DNA from: Sulfurovum sp.
Lineage (GTDB): Bacteria; Campylobacterota; Campylobacteria; Campylobacterales; Sulfurovaceae
Assembly: GCA_030622375.1 (NCBI GenBank)
Contig: JAUXGC010000022.1
Coordinates: 1-14,301, forward strand
Direction: 5' to 3'
Length of the DNA stretch: 14,301 bases
Shown here: positions 4,655 to 5,818 of the stretch, piece by piece
Position numbering within the stretch: position 1 is the first letter of the stretch
Layout: every line of letters starts with the position of its first letter
Notes under the pieces: model-generated
Databases searched by the model: none
Told to the model about the DNA's origin: nothing
The model's input: only the letters and a program-made list of their open reading frames with translations
Made by a program: the position numbers and the translations under genes

Positions 4655-5212
4655 TTAATTCAAATCCTTTAACCATGGCAATAAAACTTCAACCTGTAAA
4701 CCCATCGCCGTACTTTCATGCCCCTCAACGGACTTTATGTACTTTTTACAAAAACCTTCCACCATGCAGGCGCCTGCTTTACCTCGCCACAAGCCACCCT
4801 CCAAATAAGCTTCCAAATCATCTTTTTCAAATTTACTAAAGTGGTAATATGTTGCAGAGACATCTGAAAAGGCTAGAGTTTTTGATTTGTAGTGCACTGA
4901 AGAGATGATGGAAATCGTGGAGCCACTTTGTATCTTCAATATACGCCTTGCATCTTCAATATCTTTTGCTTTACGCAAGATAGAGCCACCAGCTGCCGCA
5001 ATCACTGTATCGGCACAAAGTAAAGGCATTTCTAAACCAAACTCACGTATAGCCGCATCTAACTTGCCTTTACTAGCAGTGTAAACAAAATCTTTTGCAA
5101 TAGTAGAACTAATCTGATCTTCATCATAATCAGGTGATTTTTGGATGAAGTCAATACCGAAGTTATTAAGTAGTAAAGCACGAGAGGGAGAATTAGAAGC
5201 AAGATGTATCAT
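4655..5212 (-). CDS. maf: Maf-family nucleoside triphosphate pyrophosphatase
   Basis: Cytoplasmic house-cleaning enzyme of the Maf/YhdE/YceF family, which hydrolyses non-canonical or methylated nucleoside triphosphates to monophosphates. The exact substrate cannot be read from the sequence. From the chosen ATG the protein has 185 residues, with SNSPSR (6-11), CADT (66-69, with the conserved Asp68), Lys81 in RKAKD and GKAGACMVEG (144-153). RKAKD replaces the common GKP motif, and a similar sequence occurs in Campylobacter Maf as I recall it. The reading frame stays open upstream to a TTG at 5251, but those 13 codons translate the REPIN-like repeat. The family N-terminus is M-I-x-LAS-x-SP, which fits the ATG at 5212 with a weak GGGAAA site upstream. 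The gene abuts bioF with no gap. The hairpin pair lies just upstream. Confidence 0.92.
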   Translation of the reverse strand: MIHLASNSPSRALLLNNFGIDFIQKSPDYDEDQISSTIAKDFVYTASKGKLDAAIREFGLEMPLLCADTVIAAAGGSILRKAKDIEDARRILKIQSGSTISIISSVHYKSKTLAFSDVSATYYHFSKFEKDDLEAYLEGGLWRGKAGACMVEGFCKKYIKSVEGHESTAMGLQVEVLLPWLKDLN

Positions 5213-5227
5213 AGATATTTCCCGTAG

Positions 5228-5249
5228 GGTGTTGTGTCCCCACAACACC
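5228..5249. repeat. REP-like hairpin 1 (perfect 9-bp stem)
   Basis: Arms GGTGTTGTG (5228-5236) and CACAACACC (5241-5249) pair perfectly around a TCCC loop. On the minus-strand transcript the loop is GGGA, a GNRA tetraloop sequence that should stabilise the hairpin. It ends 15 nt before the maf ATG. There is no T-run after it on either strand, so it does not look like an intrinsic terminator. Confidence 0.9.
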
Positions 5250-5268
5250 AAATGGGTACAATATTAAA

Positions 5269-5290
5269 GGTGCTGTAAGGATACAACACC
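5269..5290. repeat. REP-like hairpin 2 (9-bp stem with one wobble)
   Basis: Arms GGTGCTGTA (5269-5277) and TACAACACC (5282-5290) surround an AGGA loop. The single mismatch on the + strand (C5273 against A5286) becomes a G-U wobble in the minus-strand transcript, so the hairpin is fully paired in the RNA of the flanking genes. It begins directly after the stop codon of the CopD-like gene. Confidence 0.85.
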
Positions 5291-5818
5291 CTACAGTCCT
5301 CTCAAACTTACACCCGTCCAAAGCGCTACAAGACCTAAGATAATATTCAGTGGTAACAGTACATTAGGAATCCAACTTAATTGTGCTTTTGCTAGTTTCA
5401 TTTCACCTTTTCTAAACAACTTCCACGCTTCTGCTCGTTTGACATACATATAGGTGTAGTTCACTGCCATAATGGTCCAAATAATCTCTTTAGAAAGAAA
5501 AAGTGTTTTTAAATCTCCATTGTGTCCACCTGTAGCTATCGCCATCATCAAACCTGTGGCAAATAAAATTATAATGAAAGGCATCACAAGGTTAAACAAC
5601 CTACCCGTTGTTTGTAAGGTGATACCCAATCTCTGTATGGGTTCCAGCATTTTAGACATTACATCACTTTGCAACATCTCTTCTGCTGTCACACCACCTC
5701 TACTAATAACAGGATGCACTGCCACACGAATCGCTATCATGCCACCTACCCAGATAAAGGCAGATAGTACATGCAAAAAGACGATGAAATGCCCATAGTT
5801 GTTGAAGAATTCTGTCAT
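5291..5818 (-). CDS. CopD-like four-helix integral membrane protein, function unknown
   Basis: A 175-residue inner-membrane protein with four predicted helices at about 10-30, 74-95, 110-127 and 150-170. Helix 1 carries FLHVLSAFIWVGGM (14-27). An H-x6-W-V-G-G pattern of this kind is typical of CopD-type membrane domains and related small haem- or copper-linked membrane proteins. Basic loops (RVAVHP, KRAEAWKLFRKGEMK) fit the positive-inside rule for a cytoplasmic side. I do not recognise a specific function; a metal or haem role would rest on His16 and His35 only. The ATG lies 2 nt after the alaS stop codon, so translation is probably coupled to alaS. The TAG stop is formed by the GTAG foot of the REPIN-like element, suggesting the original C-terminus may have been altered by its insertion. 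Confidence 0.8.
   Translation of the reverse strand: MTEFFNNYGHFIVFLHVLSAFIWVGGMIAIRVAVHPVISRGGVTAEEMLQSDVMSKMLEPIQRLGITLQTTGRLFNLVMPFIIILFATGLMMAIATGGHNGDLKTLFLSKEIIWTIMAVNYTYMYVKRAEAWKLFRKGEMKLAKAQLSWIPNVLLPLNIILGLVALWTGVSLRGL

Follow-up and report, generated by a model that had tools for sequence, protein, structure and literature searches.

The window, a stretch of 14,301 nucleotides from a Sulfurovum genome assembly, carries at positions 5224-5294 a paired hairpin that is very probably a REPIN, i.e. a non-autonomous mobile pair of inverted GTAG REP hairpins, recognised by a RAYT transposase of the type found in related genomes. The hairpin family is dispersed through the host genome and flanks the cognate RAYT genes of relatives. 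Its stems diverge together with these genes, and at the gene junction occupied by the window copy its presence and absence are scattered across the genus.

Anatomy and dispersal of the paired hairpin

The 71-base unit consists of two GTAG-tagged hairpins placed head to head, with the stem GGTGTTGT/ACAACACC and 19 nt between them. The left REP unit (positions 5224-5249, plus strand, GTAGGGTGTTGTGTCCCCACAACACC) is built from GTAG and an 8-bp stem GGTGTTGT/ACAACACC with the 6-nt loop gtcccc. It is followed by the spacer (5250-5268) and by the inverted right REP unit (5269-5294), which reads GTAGGGTGTTGTATCCTTACAGCACC on the minus strand and combines GTAG with a GGTGTTGT/ACAGCACC stem containing one G/T pair. 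This pair, the single imperfect one of the right hairpin, appears as C/A on the plus strand and as T/G on the minus strand. Both units form a perfect inverted repeat over their outer 12 bases, and 4 differences were found over 26 bases. The pattern GTAGGGTGYTGT-N3..8-ACARCACC was present twice in the window and in none of 200 dinucleotide-preserving shuffles. Folding of the unit and its flanks as RNA (5213-5300, minus strand) predicted a single long hairpin of -46.3 kcal/mol (z -7.3), and the unit alone, folded as single-stranded DNA, likewise yielded one hairpin (z -4.7). A known structured RNA was rejected, as no Rfam family matched at gathering score anywhere in the window.

The hairpin pair is located between two co-directional genes on the minus strand. 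The upstream partner is a gene of 175 aa (5291-5818, minus strand) for which Pfam gave no hit at E ≤ 0.001; it is followed by a maf-like gene (4655-5212, minus strand) identified by its Pfam match (PF02545). The stop codon of the 175-aa gene lies inside the right REP unit and is the TAG within the GTAG of that unit (5291-5293, minus strand). On the other side, the ATG of the maf-like gene is 11 nt away from the end of the left unit.

In the host assembly (G000; 1,432,744 bases in 202 contigs, 75.99% complete) GTAGGGTGYTGT was found 66 times with at most one mismatch, compared to 7 matches for the reversed pattern. Together with the shuffles, these counts rule out a chance origin of the pair. 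Exact copies of GTAGGGTGTTGT numbered 46. Among 78 genomes of the same genus, 27 contained at least 10 exact copies and 29 contained none (reversed control, 0-1 per strand). When 150 genomes, the host and its relatives, were considered, the exact 12-mer occurred at least once in 60, and counts above 3 were confined to the host genus (up to 83) and to one genome of another genus of the same family (G080, 25 copies). The earlier note had described two related GTAG hairpins in inverted orientation, 19 nt apart in a 71-bp unit, and had supposed that they belong to a dispersed family; the coordinates were confirmed and the dispersal was borne out, the host containing dozens of copies rather than a single one and relatives containing similar pairs as well.

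The repeat takes several forms in the host: besides complete pairs there are single hairpins, solo units of 30 bp with a tag at each end and a small number of units arranged tail to tail, and in many copies the partner was degenerate or missing. Head-head pairs or solos within 200 bp accounted for 22 of the 46 exact copies in the host and for 58 of 83 in the relative G052. The head-head spans ranged from 63 to 107 bp in the host (9 pairs) and from 66 to 146 bp in G052 (28 pairs); 30-bp solo units among the exact copies numbered 2 and 1, respectively. The outer flanks of the dispersed copies are almost all mutually unrelated. A spacer conserved throughout the family was ruled out, the spacers being mostly unrelated between pairs: 9 of 806 spacer-versus-spacer comparisons in the host (outer flanks 1, shuffled 0) and 8 of 2675 in G052 (outer flanks 0, shuffled 0) scored at least 30, and some of these include REP residues. 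The few copies with a common spacer, to which the evidence is confined, lend limited support to the idea that the pair may move as a unit.

Another small hairpin repeat, CGA-N5-CATTTAGTG with a TTTAG loop and a length of roughly 40-50 bp, was noticed inside the loop of REP units, where it directly follows an intact or degenerate GTAGGGTGTTGT. All five exact matches in the host (L037:1229, L028:1543, L045:497, L046 on the minus strand and L048:1472) lay in such REP units (control 0). In relatives the repeat was seen at L137, L172, L186 and L275, and the motif was encountered again in G012 and G052.

RAYT transposases and their flanking hairpins

A Y1_Tnp domain (PF01797) above cut-off was detected in 56 of the 78 genomes of the host genus, and in G023, G008 and G080 a RAYT gene was found between copies of the window's hairpin type. 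The RAYT protein of G023 was searched against the 150 genomes; matches were obtained in 34, host included, and 30 loci were read. RAYTs at least 68% identical to the G023 protein carried GTAG-GGTGTTGT hairpins on both sides in 7 of 7 genomes, as did a broken RAYT copy in G049 (L115). All seven cognate RAYT genes, and the broken one as well, have the TAG of the 3' REP as their stop codon. The near 5' hairpin of the G080 RAYT reads GGTGCTGT/ACAGCACC, a compensated stem change. A scan of named genomes gave the same picture: hairpins of this type stood on either side of all eight loci of at least 69% identity, which are partly identical to the seven and come from MAGs labelled Sulfurovum, Campylobacteraceae or Epsilonproteobacteria. 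The flank scan of the 30 loci, which allowed stems with at most one mismatch, found no hairpin in 2; the named-genome scan, restricted to perfect stems no more than 320 bp away, gave no hairpin at 6 of 29 loci.

The stems beside less similar RAYTs were of other types. RAYTs L111-L114 and L116 (59-67% identity) are accompanied by GTCGG-type stems, and more distant ones by GGTGCG, GGTGCTGT, GGTGGG, GTTYGGC and other stems. On the RAYT tree, 7 changes accounted for 7 REP-stem labels (28 of 30 rows labelled), where the labels, like those used for the junction below, were assigned by hand from the sequences, and two of them, GGTGGG and GTTYGGC, are each spread over more than one clade. The GGTGCTGT stem was also found beside two more distant RAYTs, L120 and L123 (loop tgcc or tgct), and hence the match between stem and RAYT clade is imperfect.

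Two cognate-clade RAYTs tested against the REP_Tyr_transpos profile (NF047646) scored 143 and 143.9 bits, with a cut-off of 80, and the tested RAYTs remained below the cut-off of 55 with the IS200 profile (29.7-46.5). H58, H60 and Y132, i.e. the HUH motif and a conserved tyrosine, are invariant across 9 RAYTs, Y132 being the probable catalytic residue. Among the host proteins, NF047646 scored 133.8 bits for C170 and 82 for C79, and C125, the fifth protein in the profile test, is an IS200 transposase. A cognate RAYT was not found in the host assembly, which is 76% complete, and the only host match to it was C170 (52% identical). This protein, cut by a contig end, was ruled out as the cognate RAYT, the hairpins on its assembled side being of the GTAG-GGTGGGCA type. 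The C170 RAYT (L074, L132) is associated with a second REP family, GTAG-GGTGGGCA/TGCCCACC, represented in the host by 12 exact copies with the tag. A RAYT gene flanked by the same hairpin type, which the earlier note had proposed to look for, was present in seven of seven relatives whose RAYT reaches 68% identity and absent from the assembly of the host itself.

According to the mechanism that we propose, a Y1/HUH RAYT would recognise the REPIN as a single-stranded hairpin, with GTAG serving as recognition or guide sequence, and the REPIN would be copied or moved to places where it causes little harm, often gene ends, at which the TAG within GTAG could act as stop codon. The RAYT is presumably the mover of the family. 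By analogy with the in-vitro systems described in the accessible text of PMC8266576, GTAG might act as a guide for cleavage.

A different question is whether the family still moves in the host. REPINs deprived of their RAYT would be immobile there and inherited vertically, a state that concerns present activity and is compatible with a REPIN origin; we regard it as a real possibility, at somewhat less than an even chance. Within the genus, an intact cognate RAYT was present in 6 genomes, each of which contained at least 20 copies. The 72 genomes without one, including the host, comprised 29 with no copies and 21 with at least 10, among the latter G041 and G055, both 99% complete, and the single-contig, 100% complete G050, with 15-49 exact copies of GTAGGGTGTTGT. 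In G049, 57 copies coexist with the broken cognate-clade RAYT L115, in which the N-terminal part is unmatched and one internal stop is present. These populations speak for orphaned copies, as do the missing RAYT in the host assembly and the degenerate or missing partner of many host copies. On the other hand, the exact tagged arm has been kept in 46 copies, and the RAYT may be only apparently absent from the host, whose assembly is only 76% complete. Since 21 of the 72 genomes without an intact cognate RAYT hold at least 10 copies, and three of these are 99-100% complete, the copies need not reflect present mobility; the host family may be orphaned now, or its RAYT may reside in a portion of the genome that was not assembled. 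A precedent is found in the main text of PMC3733652, according to which many E. coli strains have lost REPtrons. With so many copies found without an intact cognate RAYT, the persistence of REPINs after transposase loss becomes directly testable.

Insertion context and occupancy of gene junctions

The base preceding GTAG was a pyrimidine in 529 of 568 copies from genomes G000-G054. In the host, the dinucleotides at this position were TT (11), CT (9), CC (8) and others among 46 copies; this mixture rules out a strict CT target, and only the pyrimidine at -1 is strong. The TAG of GTAG frequently coincided with the end of a reading frame. With open frames as proxy for gene calls and related copies treated as independent, it terminated ORFs of at least 80 codons in 9 of 45 host copies versus 21 of 840 other GTAGs (21 of 870 if overlapping matches are counted), and in 14 of 83 copies versus 24 of 922 other GTAGs in G052. 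In the other two frames, REP copies ended 1 and 2 ORFs of 45 in the host and 3 and 0 of 83 in G052. Judged by open frames only, the copies are mostly extragenic: a frame of at least 80 codons reached the tag in 12 of the 45 host copies, and in 9 of these the frame was ended by the TAG. In one REPIN (L003:995-1101, G000:C5) TAG provides the stops for two ORFs, of 216 and 263 aa, that converge on it.

The junction between the 175-aa gene and the maf-like gene was compared across the genus. Loci were obtained from 70 of the 78 genomes; five were dropped, one of the genes not being found, and 65 were read, of which 64 entered the two-gene tree (L336 was left out owing to its short match). A clear REP was present at 12 of these 64 junctions, and a further 4 were too unclear to be classified, which leaves 48. 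The genes overlap or lie within 7 nt of each other at 36 of these 48 junctions without a REP (36 of 64 overall). At the other 12 they are further apart, by 17-641 nt, and inspection by eye revealed no REP in the gaps that were read (all but the 641-nt one of L331). A clear REP or REPIN at the stop codon of the 175-aa gene was thus observed in 12 of 64 junctions, that of G068 lying three bases beyond the start of the overlap. The stems were GGTGTTGT in five cases, GGTCGGTT, GGTGGGTT and GGTGCTGT in two each and GTCGGGG in one, which makes four or five families, depending on whether GGTGTTGT and GGTGCTGT are taken as one or two. In 10 of the 12 occupied junctions the gene stop is a TAG at the position of the REP tag (8 GTAG, 2 ATAG).

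Occupancy required at least 11 changes on the two-gene tree of 60 clear rows, a tree that can be misled by recombination. Well-supported sister genomes differing in occupancy were G012/G066, G045/G057 and G068/G008 with G021. This junction was selected on the grounds that it carries the host copy, and its occupancy is therefore a non-random sample. The pattern may reflect insertions that occurred independently, losses that left no scar or the replacement of one family by another, and the window copy would have arrived at its junction by transposition. This place may be the only harmless one, in which case selection rather than target choice would be a possible reason for the recurrence. A second junction, between an aminotransferase-like gene and a 210-aa ORF (named by eye), gave an akin, weaker picture. 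Here 76 genomes had a match and 30 loci were read; the host carries a REPIN, three other genomes carry single REPs of the GGTGCG type or related, one of them doubtful, and the genes overlap in 15 of the 30 by extrapolated starts. At this second junction a CGGCATTTAGTGCC motif was seen in relatives that have no REP there.

We tentatively extend these observations to a broader proposal, which we ourselves consider rather doubtful. Single stop codons at tight or overlapping gene junctions would serve, throughout the genus, as places where several unrelated REP families dock again and again; GTAG would both guide the transposase and supply the stop, so that entry would break neither frame, and REPIN turnover at such sites would far exceed the usual picture of slow, vertical inheritance. 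What is possibly new is the comparison itself, in which several REP families are seen to have used one and the same stop codon repeatedly.

The same occupancy could instead go back to a single old insertion, or to a few, in which recombination exchanged one REP family for another, with losses besides. On visual inspection, G000, G010, G012 and G043 look similar in the stretch from the unit to the maf start, and G020 and G068 have a common spacer and flank with two stem variants in one pair, as such a history would suggest. We nevertheless judge it unlikely in view of the well-supported occupied and unoccupied sisters and of the 36 of 48 unoccupied junctions with overlapping or nearly adjoining genes. 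Far less probable still, to the point of being hardly credible, is that the element is not mobile at all and represents a conserved RNA hairpin, a bidirectional terminator or an mRNA-stability stem, that selection maintains at gene ends. Its strong RNA fold, its position between two co-directional genes and the exact abutment of some copies to reading frames would fit such a role. Against it stand the dispersed copies with almost entirely unrelated outer flanks, the occurrence of the same stem around RAYT genes whose phylogeny it tracks, the lack of such a hairpin at the same junction in most relatives and the Rfam result for the window.

Relation to known REP and RAYT systems

Most work on REPs and RAYTs has been devoted to Gammaproteobacteria. 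To this field the present analysis adds a Campylobacterota genus with several co-diverging REP/RAYT pairs, and one junction followed over 64 genomes amounts to a natural experiment for counting gain, loss and replacement of REPINs. In Pseudomonas fluorescens, Bertels and Rainey reportedly described in 2011 (PMC3116915) the inverted REP pair as a dispersed unit tied to a RAYT. Compared with these REPINs, the window family belongs to another phylum, has another stem and has spacers that are mostly unrelated between copies.

The earlier note knew of no description of REPINs as a usual feature of the phylum, a hint that is not right: Di Nocera et al. reported GTAG repeats in 2013 for the epsilon division, including Sulfurovum sp. 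NBC37-1 (PMC3733652). With the GTAG REP families of that main text the present one has in common the GTAG tag, a stem of 6-13 bp, HH dimers, the location at gene ends, TAG as stop and RAYTs flanked by REPs, and it was already stated there that GTAG termini often supply the stop codon. The Sulfurovum family of that study may be the same as that of the window; the letters GGTGTTGT are absent from its main text, the part compared here. Nor do the sections considered here contain a genus-wide comparison of one junction, apart from the recB case of Xanthomonas, in which different REPs occupy about the same site in two species. According to a survey, epsilonproteobacteria are among the groups in which one class of RAYT-like proteins is prevalent (PMC6006769). 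Among the listed matches from the open-licence literature, no REPIN study in the phylum was found beyond these two.

The REPtrons of E. coli, S. maltophilia and Marinomonas, in which a Y1 transposase cleaves a single-stranded GTAG hairpin at CT (or CA), resemble the present system in their GTAG hairpin of the single-strand type (accessible text of PMC8266576). In the present family GTAG is preceded by either T or C, without the fixed CT. Finally, IS200/IS605 TnpA belongs to the same Y1 transposase family (PF01797) as these RAYTs, of which those tested fall below the IS200 cut-off and above that for REP transposases.
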